NCBI GenBank assembly: GCA_012031975.1 | Contig: JAAUSA010000007.1 | Span: forward strand, 1-54,736 | Source of the DNA: Alkalinema sp. RU_4_3 | Lineage (GTDB): Bacteria > Cyanobacteriota > Cyanobacteriia > Leptolyngbyales > Leptolyngbyaceae | DNA length: 54,736 nt | Direction of reading: 5' to 3' | Shown: positions 8,763 through 54,736 of the stretch, piece by piece | Layout: every line of letters starts with the position of its first letter | Position numbering within the stretch: the stretch's first letter is position 1 | Notes under the pieces: model-generated | What the model was told of the DNA's origin: nothing | The model's input: the letters and a program-made list of their open reading frames with translations, nothing else | The model's database searches: none | Translations under genes and position numbers: made by a program

Positions 8763-8856
8763 AAAATCATCCATCCCACCGATCAACTCTCAACTGAATG
8801 CTTCGCCCTCACGCATTGTCACAAAGAAAGGCATTCAAAAACGCCACCCCAAAATT

Positions 8857-9252
8857 TTAAACCGATCGCACCAATTGCAGGACAATCCCCACAAGAGAAC
8901 CCAGCAGCAAAATCATCCCAGAAGAAAAGCCGATTGCAAACCCCAACAACCTTTTCTCCGCCGCCTGATAATAACCCCAAGCATACAACCCCCGACCGAT
9001 CACCCAGATGCCACCAATGACAGCTGCCACATCTGGCCGGACAAAGTGGGCAAAGAGCCACAGGGCAGGCAAAAACACAATGAGCTGCTCCAACGTATTC
9101 TGCTGAACACGAATGGCGCGTTCGAACTCCGGAGGCCCAGACATTGCCGGAGGTTTGACGCCATATTTGACTCGGGCTCTACCCACATTGATCGTGACGA
9201 CCACAAACAGAATGAGTGCCAATACGGTGACCAGACTAACCAAAGGGAACAT
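8857..9252 (-). CDS. MAPEG family membrane protein
   Basis: This 131-residue protein has four hydrophobic segments and the MAPEG pattern: an N-terminal helix, RARVKYGVKPPAMSGPPEFERAIRVQQNTLEQL (R-x-Q-x-N-x-x-E core), a middle pair of helices, and GRGLYAWGYY. The family covers membrane glutathione transferases and eicosanoid enzymes; in cyanobacteria the substrate is not known. The start is ATG 9252, with GGAG six bases upstream; the frame runs back to a TTG at 9264. It is convergent with the monooxygenase gene. Confidence 0.85.
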   Translation of the reverse strand: MFPLVSLVTVLALILFVVVTINVGRARVKYGVKPPAMSGPPEFERAIRVQQNTLEQLIVFLPALWLFAHFVRPDVAAVIGGIWVIGRGLYAWGYYQAAEKRLLGFAIGFSSGMILLLGSLVGIVLQLVRSV

Positions 9253-9289
9253 ACCAATCTCCAAACCGCTGAATACTTATGTACTGCTT

Positions 9290-9311
9290 GCGAAGCGATA
9301 AATCGCTTCGC
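9290..9311. repeat. Perfect inverted repeat upstream of the MAPEG gene
   Basis: The arms GCGAAGCGAT (9290-9299) and ATCGCTTCGC (9302-9311) match perfectly around a 2-base spacer, 38 bases upstream of the MAPEG start. The sequence resembles two overlapping HIP1-like half-sites. It could be an operator, a cruciform or a repeat remnant; no poly-T tract follows on either strand, so a terminator is unlikely. Confidence 0.5.
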
Positions 9312-9422
9312 TCGCCGAAAACAGGGTAGCGAGATCGATCGCCCTACCCCCCAGAACGTAACTATTCCTTAATTATGGGCCGCTTTGGCAGTCCTGCGGG
9401 GAAAATCTACATCTAGGTCTGA

Positions 9423-9481
9423 AAATCTACGCCTATTGGCAGAGGCGTAGGGCTTGACAGTGACGCAGAATAAGCTACACT
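9423..9481 (+). promoter_or_regulatory. Promoter for the 9561 gene, with upstream hairpin
   Basis: TTGACA at 9454-9459 and TACACT at 9476-9481 are separated by 16 bases, a good sigma70-type match on the + strand. Just upstream, CTACGCCT and AGGCGTAG form an 8-bp inverted repeat, and GAAAATCTAC occurs twice 20 bases apart, which may mark a regulator site. Confidence 0.5.
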
Positions 9482-9560
9482 CTGCGAAGTTTGTGTCTTA
9501 GATAACTTTTGGAAGGTTCCTCCGGATCGCCTAAAAGTTCCCCCCTGTGTGTTTCCTGCT

Positions 9561-9860
9561 ATGAATTACCCAAAACCGCCGACTCGCGATCGCACCTCCC
9601 TCCTTTCGCCCAAACCTTCGTCGCCGATGGATGCTGCCATCAGCGAGAACGTGTTGCTATACGCCTTGACCGTCGTCGTCCTCTCCGCCCGCGAAAAGGG
9701 TCAAACCCTAGGGGAACTGCAAGCTGAGGTCCTGGCTGACGATATGCTCCTCGACATCACCCAGCGCCGCTTCCTGAGTGAGATTGTCGCCAAGGCCTGG
9801 GAGAGAATGCCTGACTCGGTGCAGAGTCCTAATATTTCAGACCTAGAAGCCGCCGCCTAA
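9561..9860 (+). CDS. Conserved hypothetical protein of about 100 residues
   Basis: A short polar N-terminus is followed by a probably helical core (ENVLLYALTVVVLSAREKGQTLGELQAEVL...DITQRRFLSEIVAKAWERMP). There is no signal peptide or motif I can name. ATG 9561 is preferred over GTG 9549. It ends 7 bases before the sugar-kinase gene on the same strand, so the two are likely co-transcribed from the promoter at 9454. Confidence 0.65.
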   Translation: MNYPKPPTRDRTSLLSPKPSSPMDAAISENVLLYALTVVVLSAREKGQTLGELQAEVLADDMLLDITQRRFLSEIVAKAWERMPDSVQSPNISDLEAAA

Positions 9861-9867
9861 CCGCCAA

Positions 9868-11142
9868 ATGACCTATGCCCTTGGCCTTGACTTCGGTACC
9901 TCTGGAGCCAGAGCGATCGCTATCGACGGTGCCGGAACCATCGTGGCCCAGACCCAGCAATCCTTTACAGAACAAACTTCGGTGGTTTGGCGATCGGTGC
10001 TGGAGTCGTTGATTTTGGACCTGGGGGCCGAGGTGCGGGCCGAGGTCAAGGCGATCGCCATCAATGGCACCTCTTCTACGTCGCTGCTGTGCGATGGCTC
10101 TGGGGTGCCGCTAATGGAACCCCTGATGTATAATGACGATCGCGCCAAGGGTTTTGTGGAAGGGCTGAGGGCGATCGCGCCGCCGAATCATACGGTGCTG
10201 AGCGCGACTTCGAGTTTGGCGAAGCTGCTGTATTTCCAGGAGCAGCAGGCGTTTGGCCAAGCAAGGTATTTTCTGCATCAGGCGGATTGGATCGCGGCGC
10301 AGCTCCACGGGACATGGGGGGTGAGTGACTACCACAACAGTCTGAAGCTAGGCTATGACGTGGTGAACCTCAGGTATCCCGACTGGCTGCGGGGAAGGTT
10401 TGAACCGCTGTTGCCTCGGGTGGTGGCTCCGGGGACGGCGATCGGTCTGGTGATCTCAAACGTTGCCGATCGATTGGGACTGCCTCGGGACTGTCAGGTC
10501 TACGCGGGGACGACGGATAGTATTGCGGCGTTTTTGGCCAGTGGGGTGCGATGGTCTTCGACCGACCATAGGTCATCGCTTGGAGAGGCCGTCACGTCCC
10601 TTGGGTCTACGCTGGTGATTAAGCTGTTGAGCGATCGAAGGGTGGAGGATAGCCGCTATGGCATCTATAGTCATCGTTTAGGAAATCTATGGCTGGTGGG
10701 TGGGGCCTCGAATACAGGTGGGGCAGTGTTGCGGAAGTTTTTTGAGGATGGGGCAATTGCCGAGTTGAGTGGGCGGATTGATGTCGATCGGCCTTCTGGG
10801 TTGGACTATTATCCTTTGACGCAGCCGGGGGAGCGGTTTCCGATTAATGATCCGGGGTTGGAGCCAAGGGTTGAGCCAAGGCCAGAGGATCCGGTGCGGT
10901 TTTTGCAGGGGTTGCTGGAGGGGATGGCGCGGATTGAGGCCGAGGGGTACCGTCTGCTGCGGGATTTGGGGGCGACGGCTCCGGCGTCTGTGGTGACGGC
11001 GGGGGGTGGGGCGAAGAATTTGGCTTGGATGGCGATCCGGGGGCGGTGTTTGGGTATACCAGTGGCAGCAGCGTTGCAGCAGGAGGCGGCCTATGGGTCC
11101 GCTAGACTAGCTTTTCTCAGCCATCAGGCGGTAAATTGGTAG
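9868..11142 (+). CDS. FGGY-family sugar kinase, ribulokinase-like
   Basis: This 424-residue kinase is complete. The ATP-binding opening GLDFGTSGARAIAID lies at residues 6-20, the substrate-side INGTSSTSLL near 70, the catalytic-region YAGTTDSIAAFLASG near 215 and the second phosphate loop VTAGGGAKN near 375. Length and the compact C-terminus match the cyanobacterial/plant sugar kinases (SePSK/AtXK-1 type) that phosphorylate D-ribulose, rather than long glycerol or xylulose kinases. The exact sugar is inferred. It is likely the second gene of a three-gene transcript with the small protein upstream and the acyl-carrier-like protein 10 bases downstream. Confidence 0.85.
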   Translation: MTYALGLDFGTSGARAIAIDGAGTIVAQTQQSFTEQTSVVWRSVLESLILDLGAEVRAEVKAIAINGTSSTSLLCDGSGVPLMEPLMYNDDRAKGFVEGLRAIAPPNHTVLSATSSLAKLLYFQEQQAFGQARYFLHQADWIAAQLHGTWGVSDYHNSLKLGYDVVNLRYPDWLRGRFEPLLPRVVAPGTAIGLVISNVADRLGLPRDCQVYAGTTDSIAAFLASGVRWSSTDHRSSLGEAVTSLGSTLVIKLLSDRRVEDSRYGIYSHRLGNLWLVGGASNTGGAVLRKFFEDGAIAELSGRIDVDRPSGLDYYPLTQPGERFPINDPGLEPRVEPRPEDPVRFLQGLLEGMARIEAEGYRLLRDLGATAPASVVTAGGGAKNLAWMAIRGRCLGIPVAAALQQEAAYGSARLAFLSHQAVNW

Positions 11143-11152
11143 GTAGGAGTCG

Positions 11153-11671
11153 ATGAATCTCAATGTCACCCCCAGATTGGGGCATCTTGATAGAAGTGCA
11201 GATGCTATTCGATTCGTTAGAGAACCCTGGAATATGTGGCGACGGCTAAATAATTTTTGGACCAGTTTGTGGACGTATTTGGAGTTGCGGCCAGATATCG
11301 GTGCGCGCTATCGGATTAACCAGGCGCTGCGCGATCGGCCTTCCCATTTATGGCCCGAGTGGTATCGGCGGTTTTGGGAGCCGGAGGGTGTGGCGCGGGA
11401 GGTGGCGGAGTTTGTCTACCGATCGGTGGCGCGGCATTCGGGGCTGAAGGTGGAGAAGGTGGTGCCGAGCGATCGGCTGAATGAAGATTTGAAGTTGCCT
11501 TTGATCTGCTGGTTTGATTGGGAGATGTCTTTTTATGAGGATTTTTCTCGGCAGTTGGGGGTGGAGATGGATGCGGATGATTGGCTGATGTCGGATTTCT
11601 ATACGGTGGCCGATCTGATGGCGTTTTTGAATCAGCAGTTTCGGAAGAAGTCGGGTCGATTGTCGATTTAG
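11153..11671 (+). CDS. Hypothetical protein with acyl-carrier-like C-terminal half
   Basis: This 172-residue protein has a Trp-rich N-terminal half (WNMWRRLNNFWTSLWTYLEL). The C-terminal half (residues 85-165) has the size and helical pattern of acyl-carrier-like domains (PSDRLNEDLKLPLI...FYEDFSRQLGVEMDADDW...TVADLMAFL), but no DSL phosphopantetheine serine is present. It resembles DUF1493-type proteins only loosely. TAGGAG precedes the ATG. It follows the sugar kinase by 10 bases. Its 3' half is overlapped on the opposite strand by the extended Uma2 frame. Confidence 0.7.
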   Translation: MNLNVTPRLGHLDRSADAIRFVREPWNMWRRLNNFWTSLWTYLELRPDIGARYRINQALRDRPSHLWPEWYRRFWEPEGVAREVAEFVYRSVARHSGLKVEKVVPSDRLNEDLKLPLICWFDWEMSFYEDFSRQLGVEMDADDWLMSDFYTVADLMAFLNQQFRKKSGRLSI

Positions 11672-12238
11672 TCGGTTTGCCTCAACATCCTCATAGATAT
11701 CATCCAACGAAATACTCAAATCCACAGAAGCCAACTCTAAGCTTGTCCCCAATTCATAGGATTGCAAAACCCAAAGCCCCTCCTCGTTCCGCCGAAAGCA
11801 CTCCACCCTGGGATACTTGGCATTAATCAATACATATTCCTGTAATGTCTCGATCGACTGATAAACCGTAAATTTATCCCCGCGATCGAAAGCCTCCGTC
11901 GAATCTGACAAAACCTCAATAATCAAACAGGGGTGAGACTTATGATTAATTTGATCGCGATCGCGCCCATCACAGGTAACCATCACATCAGGATAGAAAA
12001 AGGTTCGCTGGCGAGGGATTTGTAGCCTCATTGCTGCCATATAAGCACGATAACTACTGCCCCGACCATGGTTTCGTAAAATCACAGCGCAATTCCCGGC
12101 GATCGTCACATGGGCATCCGTCGCCCCTGCCATCGCATAGATCTCGCCATCGATATACTCATGCTTGACATCTGAAGCCTCTTCCAAGGCAAGATATTCT
12201 TCTTCAGAGAGATAGTCAGGGATTCGAGTGGCAACCAT
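11348..12238 (-). CDS. Uma2 family protein with anomalous antisense extension
   Basis: Residues 1-185 are a complete Uma2 (PD-(D/E)xK-like) domain: LSEEEYLALEE, VKHEYIDGEIYAMAG, FYPDVMVTC and LIIEVLSDSTEAFDRGDK, with the usual end LDDIYEDVE. Uma2 genes normally stop there. Here the frame continues about 110 codons as an Arg/His/Leu/Pro-rich sequence that is simply the antisense of the convergent 11153-11671 gene. One base fewer in the AAA near 11675 would end the protein at a TAA about 11668, so the extension is probably an indel artefact. Biochemical roles of Uma2 proteins are unknown; a nuclease fold is predicted. Confidence 0.8.
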   Translation of the reverse strand: MVATRIPDYLSEEEYLALEEASDVKHEYIDGEIYAMAGATDAHVTIAGNCAVILRNHGRGSSYRAYMAAMRLQIPRQRTFFYPDVMVTCDGRDRDQINHKSHPCLIIEVLSDSTEAFDRGDKFTVYQSIETLQEYVLINAKYPRVECFRRNEEGLWVLQSYELGTSLELASVDLSISLDDIYEDVEANRLNRQSTRLLPKLLIQKRHQIGHRIEIRHQPIIRIHLHPQLPRKILIKRHLPIKPADQRQLQIFIQPIARHHLLHLQPRMPRHRSVDKLRHLPRHTLRLPKPPIPLGP

Positions 12239-12344
12239 AGTGGACCTCCATTGCTGACTTCAGTCTAGCTAAAAATAGGCGATCGATCGCTTAAACCAGC
12301 CGCAAACACCATTTCAAAATTACTTGTGCTACGAATTTCTATTC

Positions 12345-12548
12345 CTACAGATGGGTCGAACTAGACGAGCCAGATACTTCCCAATCGGTAATCATCGCGC
12401 TTTGAGACAATTCATCCCAGCCCAAACCTAACTGATCCAAAATTTTGCAAGCTTCGGCCAACGCTTGATCTTCCTGCTGCTGAAGATTTCGACGATTGCG
12501 CCGAGGGATCAAATTGCGGCGAGCGTATATTGCAATTAATCTTTTCAT
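12345..12548 (-). CDS. Small hypothetical protein downstream of a Uma2 gene
   Basis: The frame from ATG 12548 encodes 67 residues: a basic N-terminus (MKRLIAIYARRNLIPRRNRR), then an amphipathic acidic helix (QQQEDQALAEACKILDQLGL). It starts five bases after the stop of the Uma2 gene at 12554, so it is probably translated from the same message. I know no family. The longer frame upstream overlaps Uma2 and is unlikely to be the true start. Confidence 0.5.
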   Translation of the reverse strand: MKRLIAIYARRNLIPRRNRRNLQQQEDQALAEACKILDQLGLGWDELSQSAMITDWEVSGSSSSTHL

Positions 12549-12553
12549 AGTAA

Positions 12554-13156
12554 TTACCAAATTCGGTCCATACTGAGCACAAACCCCGGCATCACATCCC
12601 CACAATCGATCGAACTTGGCGATTCCAATACCGTCGCCTGCCCCGATCGATAGACCTCCACCTGCTTATTTTTCGGATTAATCAACAGTCCCAATCGCAC
12701 CCCAAGCCGCTGATACTCCTGCATCTTCTCCTGTAACGGCATCAAGTTATCCGTCGCCGACCGCAGTTCAATCACAAAATCAGGCACGATCGAAATAAAC
12801 CCAACAATGTCCACACCCACTAGCCGCGACTTCTCGATCCAAGAAACATCGGGTGACATCTTCCCACCCCCGATCTGGGTGAAGTCATAACCTGTAGATG
12901 AGTCAAAAGCTTCACCTAGATCAGTTTGACGGCTCCAAATGCCGACTTCAACCCCTAAGTTGAAATTTCGTTTACCACTTTCCCCACCTGTTGGAGGCAT
13001 AACAATTAACTCTCCATCTTTCGTTAATTCAAGACGCAGATCGGGATTGTCTAGGCAAAGCTGGTCAAAGTGCTCTGGGCTGACAGTGAGCTTGGCATGG
13101 CTAACGTTCAGAAGCAGCGAATCGATCGATGATTTAGGAGCCGTGGCGATCGTCAT
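12554..13156 (-). CDS. Uma2 family protein
   Basis: This 200-residue Uma2 protein is complete, with FDQLCLDNPDLRLELTKDGELIVMPPTGGESGKRN at the start of the domain, then SPDVSWI, VPDFVIELRSATDNL, the K-MQEYQRLGVRLGLLI helix/strand and a short C-terminal DVMPGF. The PD...ExR/K arrangement places it in the PD-(D/E)xK superfamily. Function is unknown; the family is greatly expanded in cyanobacteria. It lies between two further Uma2 genes on the same strand. Confidence 0.85.
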   Translation of the reverse strand: MTIATAPKSSIDSLLLNVSHAKLTVSPEHFDQLCLDNPDLRLELTKDGELIVMPPTGGESGKRNFNLGVEVGIWSRQTDLGEAFDSSTGYDFTQIGGGKMSPDVSWIEKSRLVGVDIVGFISIVPDFVIELRSATDNLMPLQEKMQEYQRLGVRLGLLINPKNKQVEVYRSGQATVLESPSSIDCGDVMPGFVLSMDRIW

Positions 13157-45946: not shown

Positions 45947-46117
45947 CTAGACTTTCTGTGTCCAGGCAACTCCACCCATGATGATTCGGGCGATCGCATT
46001 GATCCCTAACCCAGCCCTAGCCAAACTCCCTGCTTCGATCGTCGGGAACAGGACGATACTGAGAACCGGGATCACGATCGCGCCAATTCGCATAGCCCGC
46101 AGCAACTTCCGCTTCAT
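45947..46117 (-). CDS. Possible small membrane protein
   Basis: A 56-residue frame (MKRKLLRAMRIGAIVIPVLS, then IVLFPTIEAGSLARAGLGINAIARIIMGGVAW) has a basic start and one hydrophobic stretch. It overlaps the left arm of the long attC candidate at 46004-46193; both may not be real. I give it low confidence. Confidence 0.35.
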   Translation of the reverse strand: MKRKLLRAMRIGAIVIPVLSIVLFPTIEAGSLARAGLGINAIARIIMGGVAWTQKV

Positions 46118-46193
46118 CGGAGACACATTTTTAGATAACCTTTGGACTCAGCTCACTGCTTTGACACCGTCCGGCTCAGGGCTTATGTTATGC
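46004..46193 (-). repeat. Candidate attC site 5 (long form), end of the array
   Basis: Reading the minus strand: R'' GCATAAC (46187-46193), L'' with GCCCTGAGCCGGA, a spacer of about 145 bases, L' GGCTAGGGC and R' GTTAGGG (46004-46010). L'' carries an extra G relative to L', exactly as in the four other sites. The spacer is longer than the usual attC range; a shorter 61-base pairing using AGATAAC at 46133 is possible but pairs less well. Confidence 0.45.
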
Positions 46194-46333
46194 GGCGATG
46201 TCACCAGTTCTGTCAGGCACATACTCAACCCCCGTAATGGTTCTCCGTATAGTAGAGAAAAGCATCTCAGTGTTGGGAATTACCATAGCACTTTGTCAAA
46301 GGAACAAGTTACTAGGGCAATAGATAGATTGTA

Positions 46334-47806
46334 CTAATGAGGATTCCCGTCACTGTCTAGCACTACTTTGATTAGGAAATAACCATTGTCATTAAGTATG
46401 TATTGAACTTGCGTAGGGGGAACAGCTTGTCTACCTCCAGTAAATGTAAAGCCATGACAGTTGTAATTTGTTGTGGGAGGCTCAAGTTCAACAATTGGAC
46501 TTTTTCCTTTATGATTCTGAATGTGTTCCTTTATGCTTTTTGCATCTCCTTCCTCAGCATAGCCTGTCAGAAAAGTTGTTATCAAACGATCTTTGTCTGT
46601 GTAGTATCCATTAGCAAGGTTTAAAGGAAACTTTCGAGTTGGACGTACTATTAGTAGATTGTTTCTGCTACCATCTTTGCGTTTTGCACGCCAAACTGTC
46701 CAAGATTTTCCGTATACACTATCATTTGGGTCATGAAGATAGAGTCCTTGTCCTCCCCACTTGCTTTTGATTTGAGTGATAGTGCCATCTGGACGAACAC
46801 CTGTGATGACACCTGAGTGAGTAATCGCTCCATTTCCATTACTTGCTCGATAAATTACAATATCGCCCTGTTCTGGTAAAGTTTCCTCCTTGTTGGGTTT
46901 CGCAATTTCGTTAGATGCATCCCGCGTCATTATCCAGCTACCTGAGCCACCTGAACCAATTCGGTTAGAGCCTCTCCGCTGTTGTATCCAAGTTCCCGCA
47001 AGACGATTGCCATTTTCGGAAAGTACCAGTGTGGCAGTACCATCCATATCATTCCAAGATTGATAATACTGAAACACGAGTTTGCATTTCTTTGAATCAA
47101 AACTGCCCGATTTGATCTGCCCGACTCCACTTCCCGGTTGATTCCAACTTCCTGACAAATTTGAATTAAATTTCACTTGCCCCCAATCTGATCGCCATTC
47201 TCCAGCGATCGAAACATTGGAAGTACACGACACTGGTTTCTCGCGTGTCATAGTCCATCCACCAGAGCCACCAGAGCCTGGTCGATTAGATCCCCTTGGC
47301 TGTTGTGACCAAGTTCCTGAAAGGCGATTGCCATCTTCTGAAAGAGTAAACGTGCCAGTACCCGTCATGTTATTCCAAGGCTGGTAATACTGAAACACGA
47401 GCTTACGTGTTTTTGAATCATAACTGCCGCTAGTAATCTGTCCGATCCCACCGCCTTGGTTCCAACGCCCCGTTAAATTGGCATTAAATTCTACTACTCC
47501 CCACTCTGACTGCCACTTTCCTTCGAGTGAAACAGGTGACGGATTAGCCGCTAATATCAACTCTTCTTGGATCGGTTGGGAGACACTAGAAATAGGGGCA
47601 GAATGAGGCAATGTAGAGGGAGCAATACCCATCGGTGGCACCGCCGCAGTAGCAACTTCACCCCGCCCAAAAAGTTCATAATAAGCCGTAGAATTAAAAC
47701 TCAGCAGCCCAAAGAGAAGAAAGGTGATCGCTTTTCTTAGAAAAACTGCATTGACAACCGTTAGACAGGTGAGAAGCGCAACAAGAGCTAGACGGAACTG
47801 CCGCAT
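46334..47806 (-). CDS. Secreted protein with two lipocalin-like repeats and a C-terminal Cys/His domain (cassette gene)
   Basis: This 490-residue protein has hydrophobic N-terminal segments (LALVALLTCLTVVNAVF, AITFLLFGLLSF), then two near-identical repeats of about 94 residues (95-189 and 201-296), each GxWxSxWGxVxFNxNLxGxWNQ...GTWxQQxRGSNRxGSGG. A C-terminal half follows: GDIVIYRASNGNGAITHSG (His330) resembles NlpC/P60-like or CHAP domains, but the Cys-containing NYNCHGFTF (Cys450) comes after it, as in permuted papain-like folds. I infer a possible cell-wall or protein hydrolase. It is the only gene between two attC-like sites, and its 3' end faces the left one. Confidence 0.7.
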   Translation of the reverse strand: MRQFRLALVALLTCLTVVNAVFLRKAITFLLFGLLSFNSTAYYELFGRGEVATAAVPPMGIAPSTLPHSAPISSVSQPIQEELILAANPSPVSLEGKWQSEWGVVEFNANLTGRWNQGGGIGQITSGSYDSKTRKLVFQYYQPWNNMTGTGTFTLSEDGNRLSGTWSQQPRGSNRPGSGGSGGWTMTREKPVSCTSNVSIAGEWRSDWGQVKFNSNLSGSWNQPGSGVGQIKSGSFDSKKCKLVFQYYQSWNDMDGTATLVLSENGNRLAGTWIQQRRGSNRIGSGGSGSWIMTRDASNEIAKPNKEETLPEQGDIVIYRASNGNGAITHSGVITGVRPDGTITQIKSKWGGQGLYLHDPNDSVYGKSWTVWRAKRKDGSRNNLLIVRPTRKFPLNLANGYYTDKDRLITTFLTGYAEEGDAKSIKEHIQNHKGKSPIVELEPPTTNYNCHGFTFTGGRQAVPPTQVQYILNDNGYFLIKVVLDSDGNPH

Positions 47807-48042
47807 GATAGAAACCTATTGTAAAAATAAAATCTTTTAATACGCCCTGAATAGAAATTTACAGTATTGACTCTGAATGATCCAGTATTTTCCGCCACAA
47901 AAGTTTCATTCTAATGTTACGAAAAGTACAGTAAATGGCTACTTGTGTGAGATCACTTGAATCAGCCTAGAGCTAGTTGTCTCAGTCTCTTACGCTTTGA
48001 CAGATAAACATCAAACACTGTCTTAACCGATAATTTGAAGCC

Positions 48043-48124
48043 GCATAACGACCCCGCTCACCGGACGCAGATAACCTCTGCATCTCACCAACAACTTGAC
48101 TTCGTTCCGGTGCAGCGGGATTGT
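48043..48124 (-). repeat. attC site 4 (left part), interrupted by a group II intron
   Basis: Minus-strand reading: R' GTTATGC (48043-48049) preceded by GGTC, L' TCCGGTGAGCGGG, and L'' CCCGCTGCACCGGA (48106-48119) with one extra base. The R'' core is split: TTGT at 48121-48124 continues at 50087 as TAGCT, giving GTTAGCT on the plus strand. Joined, the site is 87 bases, the same as the sites at 51206, 52437 and 53899. Confidence 0.8.
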
Positions 48125-48643
48125 GTACGCCCAGCATGGGCGTGAGCTAATGGGGTGCAAGTCCCCTGGGGGAGAACCCGCATCCAAATGCTCGCAAGTC
48201 TTGGAGCCGAGTGATGCCAACCCCTAGTCTAAGGCAAGAGCGTCTCCGTGAGGAGGGGTTTGAAGGAAGCCAGCGACAAAACTGCGTGCCGACGGACAGA
48301 AACGTCATAGAAGGCTGGAATCTCCGGGGCGAGTTAGCACAACATAACAAAGCCCACGGGTTCAGGAGACACGGTAAATGACGCGGTCATGCAGGGAAAG
48401 TTCACGTTCTTATCTGGGGAGATCTGCCTCAATGGCAGTCTTAGAGACTACGGGAGTCTGATTGAGGTCTATCTGGAAACGGGTAGGTAGCCACAGAACC
48501 CTAAGGCTTCAAAGGCGGCCCAGCAGTCGGCAACGGCTGTTGCAAGGGGCAGAAGTCAGCCGAGGCCATAGTAGTCAAATGCCAAGCTGTAATGGTTTGG
48601 ACAGGGCGAAGGGCCGAACCCAATTAATTTTTAAGGAGGAGCG

Positions 48644-50008
48644 ATGGAAAACTCAGACGTTTCGCTGAACCCGTCCGGGGGAGAAATGGATGTGCGTGGA
48701 GCCATAGAGCCAGCCTTAGAGACAGATCTGATGGAGCGAATTCTCAGCTCAGAGAATCTGCACCGAGCATGGCGACAAGTGAGGTCAAATCGAGGCGCGC
48801 CCGGCATTGACGGGATGCGTATTGAAGACTTTCCGGCCTACGCTCGGCTTCACTGGGAGGAGATTCGTCAATCTTTGCGAGAGGGTAAGTATCAACCGAC
48901 TCCTGTGCGGCGGGTAGTGATACCTAAGCCGGGTGGGAAGGGAGAACGTTTGCTCGGTGTGCCTTCGGTCTTGGACCGGGTGATCCAGCAGGCCATCTTG
49001 CAAGTGCTGAGGCCCATCTTTGACCCGGAATTTTCCGAGTACAGTTTTGGGTGTCGTCCGAAGCGCAGTGCCCATGGTGCGATCTTACAGGTAAAAGCCT
49101 ATGTCAAGCAGGGATACCGAGGCGTGGTGGATTTGGACTTGGAAAAGTTCTTTGACACCGTGAATCAGGATGTCCTTATGGCAAGGGTCTCCCGCAAGGT
49201 GCGGGATAAGACGCTACTGAGCTTGATTGGTCGCTACCTGCGTGCCGGGGTAATGGTTGAAGGGAAGGTCGAAGCAACGGACTGGGGCACGCCGCAAGGC
49301 TCTCCCCTATCGCCATTGCTGGCCAACATCCTGTTGGATGACCTAGACCAGGAGTTGGAGCGTCGGGGTCACCGTTTTGTTCGCTATATGGACGATCTGG
49401 TCATTTTGGTCAAATCGCCCCGAGCGGCTAGGCGTGTAATGGCGAGTGTGACTCACTACCTGACCCAGAAGCTGCGACTCAAGGTAAATCCGCTCAAAAG
49501 CCGTGTTTGCCGTATCGAACGATTGGAATACTTGGGGTTTACCTTTCAAGGAATTCGGATCATTTGGACAGAACAAGCATTCCAAGACTTCAAGCATCGT
49601 TTGCGAGGATTGACCTCCAGGCGATGGCGGGTGTCGATGGAATATCGTATTGGGCGGATTAATCAGTATCTGCGTGGATGGATGGGCTACTTTGGTATTT
49701 CCAAATTGTATGGTCCGATTCCAGAGTTAGACAGTTGGCTGAGACGACGTATCCGGATGTGTTATTGGAAACAATGGCGTAAACCGAGAACGCGCATCGG
49801 CAACCTGCTGAGGCTAGGAACGCCGAGACAACATGCTTTCTCGACTGGCTTGAGCCGGAAGGGATATTGGCGGTTGTCGCGGACGATGGCGACGCATACG
49901 GGAATGACAAATGAGTGGCTAGCACAACAGGGATTGCTATCGATTCGCGATCTCTGGATGAGGGTTCAGGGATACGATAAGAAGCCTGTCAAGTTGTCTA
50001 GCAGTTAG
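48644..50008 (+). CDS. Group II intron reverse transcriptase/maturase
   Basis: This 454-residue protein has RT blocks RRVVIPKPGGKGERLLGVPSVLDRVIQQAI, SFGCRPKRSAHGAI, VVDLDLEKFFDTVNQD, GTPQGSPLSPLLANILLDDLD (215-235) and the catalytic YMDD (248-251), followed by maturase domain X (YRIGRINQYLRGWMGYFGI) and the C-terminal SRKGYWRLSRTMATHTGMTNEWLAQQGL. There is no HNH endonuclease, as expected for class C introns that use structured targets. It splices the intron RNA and reverse transcribes it into DNA. AAGGAGGAGCG precedes the ATG. Confidence 0.95.
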   Translation: MENSDVSLNPSGGEMDVRGAIEPALETDLMERILSSENLHRAWRQVRSNRGAPGIDGMRIEDFPAYARLHWEEIRQSLREGKYQPTPVRRVVIPKPGGKGERLLGVPSVLDRVIQQAILQVLRPIFDPEFSEYSFGCRPKRSAHGAILQVKAYVKQGYRGVVDLDLEKFFDTVNQDVLMARVSRKVRDKTLLSLIGRYLRAGVMVEGKVEATDWGTPQGSPLSPLLANILLDDLDQELERRGHRFVRYMDDLVILVKSPRAARRVMASVTHYLTQKLRLKVNPLKSRVCRIERLEYLGFTFQGIRIIWTEQAFQDFKHRLRGLTSRRWRVSMEYRIGRINQYLRGWMGYFGISKLYGPIPELDSWLRRRIRMCYWKQWRKPRTRIGNLLRLGTPRQHAFSTGLSRKGYWRLSRTMATHTGMTNEWLAQQGLLSIRDLWMRVQGYDKKPVKLSSS

Positions 50009-50013
50009 GTTGG

Positions 50014-50052
50014 GAACCGCCCGGTGCGGACCCGCACGCCGGGTGGCGTGGG
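50014..50052 (+). ncRNA. Group II intron domain V
   Basis: GAACCGCCCGGTGCGG and CCGCACGCCGGGTGGCG fold into the paired catalytic hairpin, with the AGC/ACC-like triad and bulge expected for IIC domain V, 6 bases after the maturase stop. Confidence 0.7.
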
Positions 50053-50106
50053 AGGGGGAGATCGTGAGGTTTTCCCCTATCCCGATTAGCTAGCGACACT
50101 TAATCA

Positions 50107-51075
50107 TTACCACTCGCTATATAGTCTTTCAACATAAGTCATTATTTCCTCCCTGGGTAAACGAATTCTAGGCTTTTGCAGTGGGTACAAACTTTCCAAA
50201 GTAGCTAAATCTTGCTCTACAACCTTTGCTGTTGACTGCATCAATGACCTCCGAGCGATCGCATTTATTCCCGGCAACTGAAATAATGGATTCTTCCATT
50301 TGCCATAGCATAAGACAAAGGTTTTTGTTCGATGTTCAGTTTCAGGGTACAAAATGAAGAACTGTGGAACATGCCCAATATCAACCTCAGCTCTGAACAT
50401 GGTCGTTGAGGGAAAACTGTATTCTAGTTCGCTTCTATAGGATTTTGGAATACTGAACAGAGCAGGGTTCTCCAGAATCTCACTCAGAGTATTATCTTCG
50501 CGCAGAAAGGTCAGTTCAACTCTGGCACGGTAACCATCCTCTTCAAAAGTATGAATTGGATTTTCACGAATCTTAAAGCTTGCGCGATGGCTGCCGTTTT
50601 GGTGATTAAAGTCGTAGTTGATTTTAATGCAACTTAAAAAGCTTGCATGGATGCTCTTTTCACCTGCAACACCAAGAAAACTCAAGCCCTTAGTTCTTCG
50701 AGAAATCAGATCGGGAATGGGCAAGCGCGGATCAAAACCTCCATACGTCCAGATTAGGTCGCCTTGAACCACTAACTCTAAGGTCTTTGCGATCGCTTGA
50801 CCATTTGGTTCTCCATCCTTGAGTAACTGACCGTTGCCATTAAACTCAAGAGCATGAAAGGGACACGCAATAGAGTTGCGAGACTCACAAATCCAACCTT
50901 CAGAAAGGGGAGCCTGCATGTGAGGGCAAATATTTTCGAGAGCAAATATTTCACCTTGTGTATTTTGCCACAAGACATAATCTTGACTGTTGAGCGTAAT
51001 CTTGTAGGGTTTGTTTAAACTCAACATTGAGCGATGTGCAACTAACCAAGGAGCACCCGGAAGAACTATTGTCAT
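50107..51075 (-). CDS. Rieske non-haem iron oxygenase (cassette gene)
   Basis: This 322-residue protein has an N-terminal Rieske domain with CPH (Cys50, His52) and CPFH (Cys71, His74) as 2Fe-2S ligands, and the mononuclear-iron motif with Asp155, His158 and His163 in NYDFNHQNGSH. This matches the oxygenase component of aromatic-ring or tetrapyrrole-side-chain oxygenases. No ferredoxin or reductase is adjacent. AGGAG precedes ATG 51075. Its stop lies 16 bases from the R'' end of attC 4 and its start 130 bases from attC 3, so it is alone in its cassette. Confidence 0.88.
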   Translation of the reverse strand: MTIVLPGAPWLVAHRSMLSLNKPYKITLNSQDYVLWQNTQGEIFALENICPHMQAPLSEGWICESRNSIACPFHALEFNGNGQLLKDGEPNGQAIAKTLELVVQGDLIWTYGGFDPRLPIPDLISRRTKGLSFLGVAGEKSIHASFLSCIKINYDFNHQNGSHRASFKIRENPIHTFEEDGYRARVELTFLREDNTLSEILENPALFSIPKSYRSELEYSFPSTTMFRAEVDIGHVPQFFILYPETEHRTKTFVLCYGKWKNPLFQLPGINAIARRSLMQSTAKVVEQDLATLESLYPLQKPRIRLPREEIMTYVERLYSEW

Positions 51076-51205
51076 AAGAATGCTCTCCTGTTTTAGACGG
51101 TTGGCAACGACAATTCTCTTCCCTCAATTTTATCAACAGACTGCTGCTTCAAGATTGAGCGCTTCACCGACAATTCTCAAATGCCGCCCCACCGACAAAC
51201 CAGCA

Positions 51206-51291
51206 GGCTAACGACCAAGATAAGCGGCGGCAAATAGATTTTGCAACTCTATCAAGATCTCTTGTCCGTCCGCTTCATCGACGTGTTAGCT
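51206..51291 (-). repeat. attC site 3
   Basis: 86 bases. Minus-strand reading: R'' AGCTAAC (51285-51291), L'' GATGAAGCGGACGG with one base extra, then L' CCGCCGCTTATC and R' GTTAGCC (51206-51212) preceded by GGTC. The L arms pair well apart from the extra base. It starts 4 bases after the stop of the cupin gene. Confidence 0.8.
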
Positions 51292-51295
51292 GGCG

Positions 51296-51643
51296 CTATG
51301 CACCACCACCAGATTCAAATGCACCCATTCTCCCAAGCCGAATGGTAATAATTTCCACATCCGTGATGGCTTTGTGAGAACCTTGCTGAGTGTGAGCAGG
51401 TGTAATCCAGAACGTACCTTGAGAACAAGTTGTTCCACCAGTTTCCACAACTCCACTTAACACGTAAACGTACTCATTACAAGGGTGCGTGTGGATAGGG
51501 ATGATAGTCCCAGCCTTCAGCTTCAGTAAGTGAATTGAACCCTCTGACACAGGCTCAGCCAAAGGCAAAAACTGTGTGCCGGGGAACTGCTCCATGTTCA
51601 GCCATTGCCCAGAGTCAGTTTGAATGAAAGTCTGTTCTGGCAT
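51296..51643 (-). CDS. Cupin-domain protein, regulated partner of TetR (cassette gene)
   Basis: This 115-residue cupin has GTIIPIHTHPCNEYVYVLSG (motif 1 with two His and a Glu) and GTFWITPAHTQQGSH (motif 2). The anti-sigma ChrR or dioxygenase-like cupins share it; a metal site is probable but the reaction is unknown. It is divergent from a TetR gene over 79 bases with a palindromic operator, and ends 4 bases from attC 3. Confidence 0.85.
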   Translation of the reverse strand: MPEQTFIQTDSGQWLNMEQFPGTQFLPLAEPVSEGSIHLLKLKAGTIIPIHTHPCNEYVYVLSGVVETGGTTCSQGTFWITPAHTQQGSHKAITDVEIITIRLGRMGAFESGGGA

Positions 51644-51676
51644 ATCCTAATTTCTCATGGTAAGGTAATGGGGCAC

Positions 51677-51695
51677 GAGTGAATAATATTCACTC
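51677..51695. promoter_or_regulatory. Palindromic operator between cupin and TetR genes
   Basis: GAGTGAATA and TATTCACTC form a perfect 19-base palindrome around one A, in the 79-base divergent spacer. It also covers a possible -10 (TAATAT). It is the expected size for a TetR dimer site, so the regulator probably controls itself and the cupin gene. Confidence 0.7.
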
Positions 51696-51722
51696 CCGAA
51701 GCTTATCATAAACCTCTACAGC

Positions 51723-52361
51723 ATGAGCAGGCAATTGAAAACCTCGCAATCCCGTTACGATATTGAAGGCAGATATAAAGCACTACTTGAAGCAGGTGAG
51801 ACTTTATTATGCAATGGGTATGACAGCGCTCAGCCCCAACTCATTGCCAAAACTGCAGGCGTGTCGATTGGACTATTTTATCGACACTTCAAAAACAAGC
51901 AGGAATTGCTAACTGCCATTATGGTTCATCATTTAGGGATTTTGCATCGCCAAACTATACAGGAAATTGAGTATTCCCCCAATCCAGTTGAAGCACTTCA
52001 TATTGTCCTAATTTTGACGCTGCGCTACTTCCAAGCTCATCAAGGACTGATCAAGCTCTTTTTCATGCAAATCGGTTATGGGGATGCGATCGCAACCGAA
52101 CAATTGCGAGAAGCTAGGAAAACTTATCGAAATATCTTGGAATCCATTCTCCAATCAGGAATTGCGAGAGGTGTATTCATTACTCCAGATGATTTGGATA
52201 TTCAAATAGCTATCAATAGCATTATTGGGACGATTAACTGGTCACTCTACGACCTGTTAATTGTTAGAAATGAAGCGATAGAACCAGATGACCTGGGAGC
52301 AAGGCTCTCAACGCATATTCTTCGTGGTCTGGGTTATGAATTTAATACCGTACACCCATAA
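51723..52361 (+). CDS. TetR-family transcription regulator (cassette gene)
   Basis: This 212-residue protein has an N-terminal HTH (YKALLEAGETLLCNGYDSAQPQLIAKTAGVSIGLFYRHFKNKQELLTAI, about 18-66) and a ligand-binding helical C-terminal domain. It reads towards attC 2, opposite to the cassette orientation, and is divergent from the cupin gene with which it shares an operator. The effector is unknown. Confidence 0.9.
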   Translation: MSRQLKTSQSRYDIEGRYKALLEAGETLLCNGYDSAQPQLIAKTAGVSIGLFYRHFKNKQELLTAIMVHHLGILHRQTIQEIEYSPNPVEALHIVLILTLRYFQAHQGLIKLFFMQIGYGDAIATEQLREARKTYRNILESILQSGIARGVFITPDDLDIQIAINSIIGTINWSLYDLLIVRNEAIEPDDLGARLSTHILRGLGYEFNTVHP

Positions 52362-52436
52362 CCGAAAACTTACGCTGACTTGGCTCCCGAAACCAGCATA
52401 TAACTTTCATGTGCTCCCCTAACCAAGGTTTAAGCC

Positions 52437-52523
52437 AGCTAACGGTTGCAATCAGCGGCGACGAGTAAACTTTGCAGCATCACCAAGGTCCCTCAACCGT
52501 CCGCTGCATTGCAATTGTTATAC
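52437..52523 (-). repeat. attC site 2
   Basis: 87 bases. Minus-strand reading: R'' GTATAAC (52517-52523), L'' TTGCAATGCAGCGG, L' CCGCTGATTGCAA and R' GTTAGCT (52437-52443). The L arms pair over 13 bases with one extra G in L''. It is the clearest of the sites and starts 8 bases after the stop of the next cupin gene. Confidence 0.85.
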
Positions 52524-52531
52524 TGCGCTAT

Positions 52532-52852
52532 CTACACTTGCTTTTCTGGATAGAAGATAAACAGCGTACAACCTGTCTTAGATTGGGGAACATGACTAGA
52601 CCCAACTGGATGATGAATGAATGTTCCGGCAGGATAGTCACGAGTCCCATCATTAAAAACTCCACTCATGACCAAAACTTCCTCTGAATTGTCTTGGTGG
52701 AAGTCAACGCCCTCCCATCGAGCGCCAGGTGCAATCTCAACCACCACTGCCTGTGATCCAGCATCACCTTGCCATAACTGGCGCACAGAAATTCCACTGA
52801 AAACCTCTTGAACTGGGCTATCTTGTCCGTTTGACCATACTATTGTACTCAT
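52532..52852 (-). CDS. Cupin-domain protein, ChrR-like (cassette gene)
   Basis: This 106-residue cupin has GARWEGVDFHQDNSEEVLVMSGVFNDG (motif 1) and YPAGTFIHHPVGSSHVP (motif 2), the pattern of ChrR-like cupins of the anti-sigma group. It differs from the cupin at 51296. It is divergent from a LysR regulator and ends 8 bases from attC 2. Substrate and metal are unknown. Confidence 0.85.
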   Translation of the reverse strand: MSTIVWSNGQDSPVQEVFSGISVRQLWQGDAGSQAVVVEIAPGARWEGVDFHQDNSEEVLVMSGVFNDGTRDYPAGTFIHHPVGSSHVPQSKTGCTLFIFYPEKQV

Positions 52853-52919
52853 TTAGATCCTCTCCTTTGAACTTGTAACTGAAGCTTAAACTGCTAAAAT
52901 CTATTTGTCAAAATGAACT

Positions 52920-52940
52920 AAATGAATTTAAGATTCATTT
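52920..52940. promoter_or_regulatory. Inverted repeat in the LysR-cupin spacer
   Basis: AAATGAAT (52920-52927) and ATTCATTT (52933-52940) pair perfectly around TTAAG, 16 bases upstream of the LysR start and inside the 104-base divergent spacer. Size and place fit a LysR-type recognition site; a T-N11-A core is present. Confidence 0.6.
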
Positions 52941-52956
52941 TTACTGATATACACTT

Positions 52957-53844
52957 ATGGAATTTCGCCATCTACAGACCTTTCAAGCGATCGTGCAAGA
53001 AGGTAGCTTTCTGAAAGCCGCTGAAAAGCTTCAGTACGCACAATCCACAATCACATTGCATATCCAGCAGCTAGAAGCAGAGTTAGGCGTGAAACTTTTC
53101 TCTCGTCGCGGTAAGCGCACAGAATTAACGGTTGCTGGTAGAACCCTTCAAGATCACGCTGACTATCTACTTCATCGTGCAGCTAATTTACAGCAAACAA
53201 TGACTGATTTAGTTGCCGGGGAAGCTGGGCATCTACGAATCGGGTCAATCGAACCTGTTGCGAGTGTTCATTTGCCTACGGTACTGACACAATTTTGCCG
53301 TGAACACCCTAAAGTGCGTCTGACCTTAGAAGTTGGGGTGACTCAAGTGATTAGCCAGCGTGTAGCGGCAGGCTCACTAGATGCAGCGATCTGTTCACCT
53401 CCAAGTGCAAATTTAGATTTAGCTTTTGAATTGCTATTTCAAGATCCGATCGCACTGCTAATTCCAGAAACACACCAATTCGCCGCATTAGATTGTATTT
53501 CAGTTTCCTCATTGGTCGGAGAGCGTTTGATTCTTACCGAGGAACACTGTCCCTATCGTAATATTTTAGAGAAAGCGTTACTTCCTCATGGAATTAACCC
53601 CTTTTCAGGGATCGAAGTGATGAGTCTGGAAGCAATCAAACAAATGGTGCGATGTGGCTTAGGAGTGGGTGTCCTGCCTAGTGCTGCAATCGCTTCTCCC
53701 CCTCCACATACGATTACTCGAAATATCGCAGAGTTAGATTTGAAATTACCTGTTGGTGTTGTCTTTCAATCAGAAACAAGCTTTCCTGGCTCGACCTTGT
53801 ACTCACTAATTTCAGAATTGAAAGCCAGCTTGGAAAAACTCTAA
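52957..53844 (+). CDS. LysR-family transcription regulator (cassette gene)
   Basis: This 295-residue LTTR has the HTH MEFRHLQTFQAIVQEGSFLKAAEKLQYAQSTITLHIQQLEAELGVKLFSRRGKRTELT and a substrate-binding domain (LRIGSIEPVASVHLPTVL, MVRCGLGVGVLPSAA). It is divergent from the ChrR-like cupin gene and reads opposite to the cassette direction. By analogy it controls its own gene and the cupin; the inducer is unknown. Confidence 0.92.
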   Translation: MEFRHLQTFQAIVQEGSFLKAAEKLQYAQSTITLHIQQLEAELGVKLFSRRGKRTELTVAGRTLQDHADYLLHRAANLQQTMTDLVAGEAGHLRIGSIEPVASVHLPTVLTQFCREHPKVRLTLEVGVTQVISQRVAAGSLDAAICSPPSANLDLAFELLFQDPIALLIPETHQFAALDCISVSSLVGERLILTEEHCPYRNILEKALLPHGINPFSGIEVMSLEAIKQMVRCGLGVGVLPSAAIASPPPHTITRNIAELDLKLPVGVVFQSETSFPGSTLYSLISELKASLEKL

Positions 53845-53898
53845 TTGATGCAGCCCACAGACAGCCTTCAAATACTGTCTCCACCGACGACTTGAGCA

Positions 53899-53984
53899 GT
53901 ATAACGTTCGTGTTCAGCGGATGCAAATAATCTCTCGATCTTAATGACAAGACTAATAATTCCGCTGCAACACGATTGTTATGT
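53899..53984 (-). repeat. attC site 1
   Basis: 86 bases. Minus-strand reading: R'' ACATAAC (53978-53984), L'' CGTGTTGCAGCGGA with one extra base, L' TCCGCTGAACACG and R' GTTATAC (53899-53905). It lies 60 bases after the stop of the DUF3592-like gene. Confidence 0.8.
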
Positions 53985-54044
53985 GCCAACTATACCGTAG
54001 GCACATCAAAGCGTTTCTAATCTTCCATAGTACTTTGTAGATCA

Positions 54045-54536
54045 TCATTTCCTCAATAATAAGTAAAGGGTAAAAATAAATATCATCAACGTAACTACGA
54101 TCATGCCAAAAAATACGATAGCCCAAGCGAAATCAAAAAAATAAGATGACCGTAATCCGCGCCTTAGCACCATCTCCTGAGGACTATTAGGACGATAAAA
54201 GATTTCTCTCTTGCTTCCCAATGCATAAGTGACATTTTCTGCGTATTCAACAGCTTTACGACTGTGAAATCCTCTCTGCTCAAACTGTGCTGTAAAAGCA
54301 GTGCCATCCACAATATATCTATATGTAAAAGCTATTCCATAATTTGGACCTGTTCTGATGCTGCCTATATCATCAAGAATACGACAAGCTATCACTGTAC
54401 TTTCAGCAGGACACCAACTTTTGCTCCGATACCCTAATATTATTTTTTGAATTGACCAAATTATTGATTTGAAACTTTCTACCGTAAAGAACAATAATGC
54501 TACACCACCGCATATGAATCCAAGGACTTCCCCCAT
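54045..54536 (-). CDS. DUF3592-like membrane protein (cassette gene)
   Basis: This 163-residue protein has a hydrophobic helix at each end (about 5-30 and 133-160) around a beta domain: WCPAESTVIACRILDD, YGIAFTYRYIVDGTAFTAQF, EYAENVTYALGSKREIFYRPNSPQEMVLR. This is the DUF3592 arrangement, of unknown function. It is AT-rich compared with the core genes. Its 3' end faces attC 1, so it is the gene of the first cassette visible. Confidence 0.8.
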   Translation of the reverse strand: MGEVLGFICGGVALLFFTVESFKSIIWSIQKIILGYRSKSWCPAESTVIACRILDDIGSIRTGPNYGIAFTYRYIVDGTAFTAQFEQRGFHSRKAVEYAENVTYALGSKREIFYRPNSPQEMVLRRGLRSSYFFDFAWAIVFFGMIVVTLMIFIFTLYLLLRK

Positions 54537-54609: not shown

Positions 54610-54736
54610 GTCGGGTAAAGGAGAAGGTTTTAGATATAGCCTGCTCCCTCCCCTCAGAACCGTACGTACAACTTTCACTGTATACGGCTCAAGCAATCTC
54701 TAAGCCCCTTGGTGCAATTGTAGATGACAAACCATA
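54610..54736 (-). mobile_element. 3' end of a second group II intron (continues beyond the window)
   Basis: On the minus strand 54690-54657 reads a typical domain V (GAGCCGTATACAGTGAAAG, then TTGTACGTACGGTTC). A domain VI-like stem and an end TTTACCCGAC follow at 54610. Its sequence is unlike the domain V at 50014, so it is a different intron class. The maturase, if any, lies to the right. Confidence 0.8.

Follow-up and report, generated by a model that had tools for sequence, protein, structure and literature searches.

An apparent integron cassette array in a cyanobacterium, with a group IIC-attC intron in one of its attC sites

Alkalinema sp. RU_4_3 is a cyanobacterium whose genome assembly (5.25 Mb in 362 contigs, 97.4% complete) includes contig JAAUSA010000007.1, which we analysed over its complete length of 54,736 bases and refer to as the window. 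Towards its right-hand end lie four genes, each followed by an attC hairpin site on the minus strand, and the leftmost of these sites is interrupted by a group II intron. A sequence-only reading of this DNA had proposed an integron cassette array over positions 46004-54536. We consider it very probable that the region is indeed an integron cassette array in a cyanobacterium and that a group IIC-attC intron has inserted itself into its first site, attC1. The features of the region are as follows (G, C and L numbers, here and below, denote genomes, contigs and loci).

48043..48124, minus strand: R'-L'-L'' portion of attC1, left of the intron (sequence, covariance model); unlike the L141 attC of the same gene
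48125..50086, plus strand: group II intron of the IIC-attC kind (Rfam group-II-D1D4 matches, junctions, class 1 integron relatives)
48644..50008, plus strand: intron-encoded reverse transcriptase/maturase, 454 amino acids (Pfam RVT_1 and GIIM)
50087..50094, minus strand: R'' portion of attC1, right of the intron (sequence)
50107..51075, minus strand: Rieske [2Fe-2S] protein, cassette gene (Pfam; copy beside intI in Phormidesmis RL_2_1)
51206..51291, minus strand: attC2 of the cupin/TetR cassette (sequence, covariance model, hairpin folding)
51296..51643, minus strand: cupin (Cupin_7), cassette gene (Pfam)
51723..52361, plus strand: TetR-family regulator, divergent, sharing the cupin's cassette (Pfam; DNA matches in G277 and G004)
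52437..52523, minus strand: attC3 of the cupin/LysR cassette (sequence, covariance model, folding; travelled with the gene in L238)
52532..52852, minus strand: cupin (Cupin_7), cassette gene (Pfam)
52957..53844, plus strand: LysR-family regulator, divergent, sharing the cupin's cassette (Pfam; same cassette in G008:C444 = L238)
53899..53984, minus strand: attC4 of the DUF3592 cassette (sequence, covariance model, hairpin folding)
54045..54536, minus strand: DUF3592 protein, rightmost cassette gene, upstream end beyond view (Pfam)
54610..54736, minus strand: 3' end of a second, different group II intron at the contig end (Rfam Intron_gpII)
46334..47806, minus strand: CHAP-like gene adjoining attC1 (weak CHAP match, below the cut-off)

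Structure of the attC sites and their relatives

All four attC sites lie on the minus strand in a single orientation and measure 86-87 bases, with site 1 split by the 1962-base intron. On the minus strand, which is the top strand of the cassettes, every site has an R'' box (..TAAC) and an R' box (GTTA), its L'' arm contains an additional G (C on the plus strand) compared with the L' arm, and a second unpaired base is present closer to the loop. As read from the sequence, the folded bottom strand of each site has an unpaired C and an unpaired T six bases apart. The plus (bottom) strand folded better than nearly all dinucleotide shuffles of itself, with z values of -2.95 to -4.01 and 0 to 2 of 200 shuffles as good. 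Positions, boxes, lengths and shared orientation are all as the sequence-only reading had described them. It had also placed the 3' end of each gene 4-60 bases before R''; the proximity holds, but the measured distances from gene stop to R'' are 13, 5, 9 and 61 positions. The array that it drew over 46004-54536 stands from attC1 rightward; to the left of it, between 46004 and 48042, no attC was seen by the covariance model described below with filters off at E<=10, where nothing exceeded 9.0 bits. A possible long attC at 46004-46197, picked out by eye from box-like stretches, gave no match to the model and is not claimed, and an Rfam scan of the window returned no attC family among its four matches at the gathering threshold.

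From the four sites we built a covariance model, R1, in which the window sites score 82-90 bits by construction; because the model was made from them, the real test lies in matches elsewhere. The same genome contains nine further R1 sites with E values of 3e-15 to 4e-6, on contigs C273 (six), C161 (two) and C253 (one), a count from which one opposite-strand duplicate and three matches with E values above 4e-6 have been removed. A covariance search had been named as a check by the sequence-only reading, and the proposal came through one made with R1, the model finding other sites down to E 3e-15. Among the host and 57 relatives, at least 55 of the 58 genomes have one or more R1 sites at E<=1e-4, and the three with none among the matches listed are 1.7, 2.5 and 3.0 Mb in size. 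Counts from this 58-genome search (best 76 candidates per genome) and from searches of 388 genomes (best 2 per genome) are minimum values. Neighbouring sites less than 5 kb apart in 40 arrays of relatives shared their orientation in 121 of 122 pairs; here, 172 of 175 sites were used after opposite-strand duplicates of stronger sites had been dropped, as were 65 of 68 in the set adjacent to integron integrase genes (intI).

Covariation supports the stem. When the best 150 of 175 sites were fitted to the model (alignment A4), both sides of the stem had changed in 465 cells, against a mean of 137 in shuffled alignments, with 0 of 500 shuffles as high, and 53-134 in slid controls. The unpaired top-strand columns held G in 147 of 150 sites and A in 150 of 150, corresponding to C and T on the bottom strand, counts that lean towards the model used for the fit. 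The sites of A4 (n=150) are 85-89 bases long, a length that the model favours.

Eighty named loci encoding an intI relative contain 26 R1 matches, distributed over 17 loci, if one of the 27 matches obtained is set aside (in L134, a plasmid locus included for its intron). All 26 are on the strand opposite intI, 25 on its 5' side and one on its 3' side (L168), which is the layout of an integron. An R1 site is present at 8 of the 14 intI loci with cyanobacterial titles.

Several side observations concern the arrays of relatives, some of whose genomes hold dozens of attCs. Genomes G013, G022, G025, G026, G040, G042 and others have 3-5 intI matches each, whole or broken, some of them fragments of one locus. 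Two loci of G013 (L064 and L220) contain successive near-identical attCs separated by about 222 bases; the repeated cassettes look devoid of open reading frames (ORFs), and the L064 intervals are mostly without an ORF of 70 amino acids. At L078 in G040, positions 2526-2617 hold a relative of the window's second group II intron, situated between intI and the first attC that was detected.

Cassette sharing, cargo and the integrase

Two of the window cassettes recur elsewhere almost letter for letter, and in both the identity ends at the crossover point. The LysR/cupin cassette with its attC is identical at 1462 of 1468 positions to a locus in another genus of the same family (L238 in G008), the identity running from R' of attC3 to R' of attC4 with different neighbours outside it. 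The Rieske unit (50087-51212) is identical at 1125 of 1126 positions to DNA of Phormidesmis sp. RL_2_1, a member of another family (L141; coordinates those of G385:C383), where it is the first cassette and directly adjoins the upstream region of intI. Judged from these alignments, the LysR/cupin and Rieske cassettes are mobile units bounded at G/TT of R' (the slash marks the crossover). Together with a single model common to window and intI-adjacent sites, this agrees with the earlier assignment to integron cassettes; a fixed gene order, which would have spoken against it, is not seen, as cassette neighbours differ between genomes. Weaker copies of the LysR/cupin region are found, among the matches listed, in G281 (89%), G167 (74%) and G031 (73%), and DNA matches over most of both genes of the cupin/TetR cassette in G277 (72%) and G004 (65%). 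The remaining window cassettes have no near-identical copy among the matches listed for the 388 genomes, at the best 2 candidates per genome.

The cargo had been described as unrelated genes, which is correct in part, but two of the four, the cupins, belong to the same Pfam family (Cupin_7). Of the three complete cassettes, two also contain a divergent regulator of their own (TetR in one, LysR in the other), a feature absent from the earlier account. We considered regulator-bearing cassettes as a general cyanobacterial trait, and this was not upheld: among 30 antisense ORFs of at least 120 amino acids in 179 cassettes (29 scanned with Pfam, the thirtieth an intron reverse transcriptase by BLAST), only five encode TetR or LysR proteins, four of them in the nine cassettes of the host genome and the fifth being the same LysR cassette in G008. 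A second array in the host genome, with six attCs, occupies positions 4108-17629 of C273 (L033) and carries a glycosyltransferase with TetR, DJ-1, hydrolase and reductase genes with LysR, a BrnT/BrnA toxin-antitoxin pair, a short-chain dehydrogenase/reductase and an IS110-family transposase. Rieske protein homologs occur in 23 of the 57 relatives, mostly at 37-56% identity, the closest being outside the host's family.

Integron integrases scoring over the curated cut-off were present in 31 of the 58 genomes, and a profile of 11 of them together with the host relic matches the integron integrase structure 2a3v along its whole length, with an E value of 1e-117. Stop codons listed in the intI genes of several relatives were considered as recoded; in the three cases translated, the stop was the ordinary final codon. 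In the host, TIGR02249 matches other than the two intI copies described below are weak (31 bits or less), and we take them for other tyrosine recombinases.

Several observations weigh against an integron origin of the array. Neither intI nor attI was found within the window. The best intI copy of the host (C54:435-1103) ends near profile position 210 of 315, before the C-terminal catalytic part, a copy on C224 has a large internal deletion, and the intI beside the Phormidesmis Rieske cassette carries TGA in frame as codon 130 of the stretch matched. No R1 match was obtained at 63 of the 80 named intI loci, several of which have little sequence 5' of intI. None of 19 scanned Rieske-homolog loci has an R1 site within about 1.5 kb of flank, and the Rieske gene family is therefore not confined to cassettes. 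The CHAP-like gene, the leftmost element, has no attC after it in the R1 search and is therefore not established as a cassette; it may be the last cassette or chromosomal. This gene also holds two 211-base copies of one stretch, 74% identical to each other (46920-47451).

The 5' end of the array lies beyond view, as the contig stops within the 3' part of the second, different group II intron, whose 127 bases at the window's right end are identical to the end of contig C161. Since only broken intI copies were found and the contig ends inside an intron, the array would now be either a CALIN (a cluster of attC sites without an integrase) or the far end of an unassembled integron with intI past the contig end. 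In such an array, a cassette would comprise a gene, in two cases with a divergent regulator, ending in an attC, the bottom strand of which would fold into a hairpin with unpaired T-N6-C. A cyanobacterial IntI would, now or recently, have captured the cassettes at an attI, and recombination of the folded bottom strand at G/TT of R' by the integrase would allow each cassette to move as a unit. Because no functional intI was found in the genome, the genes would depend for their expression on promoters within the cassettes, an arrangement that the divergent regulator/cupin pairs suggest.

A further observation concerns contig ends. A near-identical stretch of about 118 bases occurs at four of them in the host (C54:1-130, C224:9098-9221, C26:13-143 and C27:19885-20011; L009-L012), twice directly upstream of a broken intI; each time a ..TAAC core comes next, with repeats like GAAACTTTCCGTATA following the core. 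It is perhaps the end of an insertion sequence or a repeated first cassette.

The intron and the mismatch between gene and attC

The intron is inserted in R'' of the attC1 bottom strand at ATTGT/TAGC (TTGT/T), antisense to the cassettes. Insertion at TTGT/T of the attC bottom strand, antisense to the cassettes, is given as the signature of group IIC-attC introns in published passages on this class (PMC7923331), and on sequence grounds 48125-50086 is such an intron. Its protein matched only RVT_1 and GIIM in Pfam, with no endonuclease domain matched, and is 52-53% identical to those of introns lying between class 1 integron cassettes; the nearest plasmid-borne relative reaches 65% (Candidatus Methylocalor), and one of the nearest annotated homologs is named Group IIC intron reverse transcriptase. 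Evidence at the RNA level consists of the Rfam group-II-D1D4 matches. Relatives of the region extend across the class, at least 63 of 388 genomes matching it at E<=1e-30, many via the intron. Among 24 other intron 5' ends, 16 abut an R1 site on the opposite strand; the remaining eight comprise one with no real end (L277), one without flank (L272) and six that are attC-like by eye only. The intron may spread by homing to attC bottom strands. The host genome itself holds a second, internally deleted copy, 92-96% identical, which splits an attC on C161, and fragments elsewhere. The C161 copy lies in an attC pair (8842-12729, L034) beyond large ORFs that look like glutamate synthase, and the genes beside it have no homologs but themselves among the matches listed for the 388 genomes (best 2 candidates per genome).

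We then compared the two sides of the intron. The Phormidesmis copy of the Rieske cassette is intron-free, and 58 of 86 alignment columns (67%) are identical between its attC and attC1 of the window, where the median for random attC pairs is 64%. Identity with this cassette switches exactly at the intron: on the gene side a single base differs, and on the attC side the similarity is background-like. The comparison requires an intron-free homolog as well as the attC on the intron's left, and both were available for three cassettes, those of the window, L283 and L282. The gene of L283 is 87% and 81% identical to its intron-free homologs L260 and L223 and its attC 55% and 57%, whereas L260 and L223 agree with each other at 77% in the gene and 76% in the attC. 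L282 shows no exchange, with identities of 97.9% (gene) and 84.5% (attC) to intron-free homologs. An attC other than that of the intron-free homologs is thus present in two of the three testable cassettes, and a rule by which intron-bearing cassettes always have an exchanged attC fails on L282. For L261, L281, L291, L307 and L313 the left side of the intron falls outside the DNA examined, and the other 17 intron flanks were compared only with loci already collected.

Intron-free cassettes provide the baseline. Among 95 pairs of intron-free homologs with gene identity >=0.80, attC identity was >0.67 in 81 and <=0.67 in 14, and 12 of these 14 involve one cassette, L292. The pairs derive from homologs of two genes, one flanking the intron of L282 and the other that of L261, for which 14 of 20 and 8 of 20 loci were used; loci were dropped if they had an intron, no recognisable TAAC box or less than 85 bases of flank.

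Leon and Roy have proposed a model, set out in passages of PMC3053210 and PMC7923331, in which a gene and an attC are joined through recombination between introns. Read from the sequences, a mismatch located at the intron is what this model predicts, which is not proof of it. The breakpoint between gene and attC is no more than one or two bases away from the integrase core G/TT in R'', so that a part played by the intron is suggested rather than demonstrated.

Four explanations have to be weighed, the first three for the mismatch and the last for the sites themselves. The one that survives best, to which we would give not quite an even chance, is that attC1 became a chimera by homologous recombination between two IIC-attC intron copies residing in different attCs, the Rieske gene keeping the R'' side; later splicing and reverse transcription could then give an intron-free cassette with a new attC, as outlined in the portions of the Leon and Roy (2009) model cited above. 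The switch at the intron from 1125 of 1126 identical positions to near-random similarity, the existence of the C161 copy in another attC, the second case of L283, the retention of its attC by the intron-free LysR/cupin cassette and the 81 of 95 intron-free pairs with similar attCs all argue for this route. On the other hand, the attC of L282 is of the same type as in its intron-free homologs, the 14 dissimilar pairs indicate that exchange takes place also where no intron is visible, no donor of the attC was found, and three cases are too few for a test.

Alternatively, and tenably if on balance we lean away from it, the difference in attC arose independently of the intron, which was inserted only after illegitimate joining or an integrase reaction on the R'' side had linked the gene to another attC. 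IIC-attC introns insert at that point anyway, the G/TT core is so near that the breakpoint does not discriminate, and intron-free homologs with dissimilar attCs do exist; the frequency of exchange counts in the opposite direction, at two of the three intron-bearing cassettes open to the comparison and 14 of the 95 pairs without an intron. An assembly artefact, in which the contig was misjoined within the repeated intron so that the Rieske gene and attC1 are not true neighbours, appears improbable: the second intron copy and the fragments in the genome provide the repeat that it needs, but the longest exact stretch shared is 89 bases with the C161 copy and 52 with a fragment on C163, and where the window ends on the right, the assembly is indeed broken at a repeat. 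Transcription terminators, or repeats of some other family, might likewise form hairpins just past gene stops, but this reading of the sites can be dismissed in view of the conserved R and L boxes with their unpaired bases, the orientation relative to intI and the cassette-bounded sharing.

Recombination between intron copies could re-pair genes with attCs more widely, and it is tempting to speculate that the Rieske-intron-attC1 unit shows intron-mediated cassette assembly midway, as a natural intermediate in which the gene is held to a foreign attC, a proposal that we regard as rather unlikely on present evidence. If it were true, splicing and reverse transcription of this unit would release a new gene-attC pairing, and the arrays of cyanobacteria, in which introns of this family are common, would be sites of ongoing cassette formation. 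The presence of an intron exactly at the mismatch, together with a known intron-free sister cassette, makes the intron-mediated model of attC acquisition testable.

Comparison with known systems

Knowledge of integrons derives largely from proteobacteria. In the cyanobacteria described here, nearly identical cassettes are shared across genera and across families, with non-resistance cargo, own regulators and nearly uniform T-N6-C attCs. The sequence-only reading had held that cyanobacterial integrons are rarely described. This needs correction, given R1 sites in nearly all genomes searched and what is already in print: passages of a review name cyanobacteria among the phyla with integrons, and a Cyanobacteria-specific attC model is listed among 11 (PMC8618304, PMC8352920). 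Among the titles listed by our search of the open literature, none dealt with cyanobacterial integrons or with IIC-attC introns in cyanobacteria, which is no proof of absence, subscription papers being outside its scope. Sites of the T-N6-C type were excised as well as or better than T-N6-G sites by several integrases, according to the part of PMC3053210 that deals with them.

The array resembles integrons and CALINs in having an attC hairpin after each gene, one orientation, cassettes shared as units and only broken intI found; it differs in that two of three complete cassettes carry their own divergent regulator, and in sites of 85-89 bases, with the model's preference for that length to be kept in mind. 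Compared with the integron integrase of 2a3v, deposited as IntI4 and identified in the relevant passage of PMC3053210 as VchIntIA of Vibrio cholerae, the cyanobacterial IntI profile aligns over the whole length, whereas the copies in the host genome are broken. The intron, finally, shares with known group IIC-attC introns (S.ma.I2 and those of class 1 integrons) its insertion at TTGT/T in R'' of the bottom strand, opposite to the cassettes; unlike them, it resides in a cyanobacterial lineage, and the same gene is accompanied elsewhere by a different attC from that beyond the intron here.

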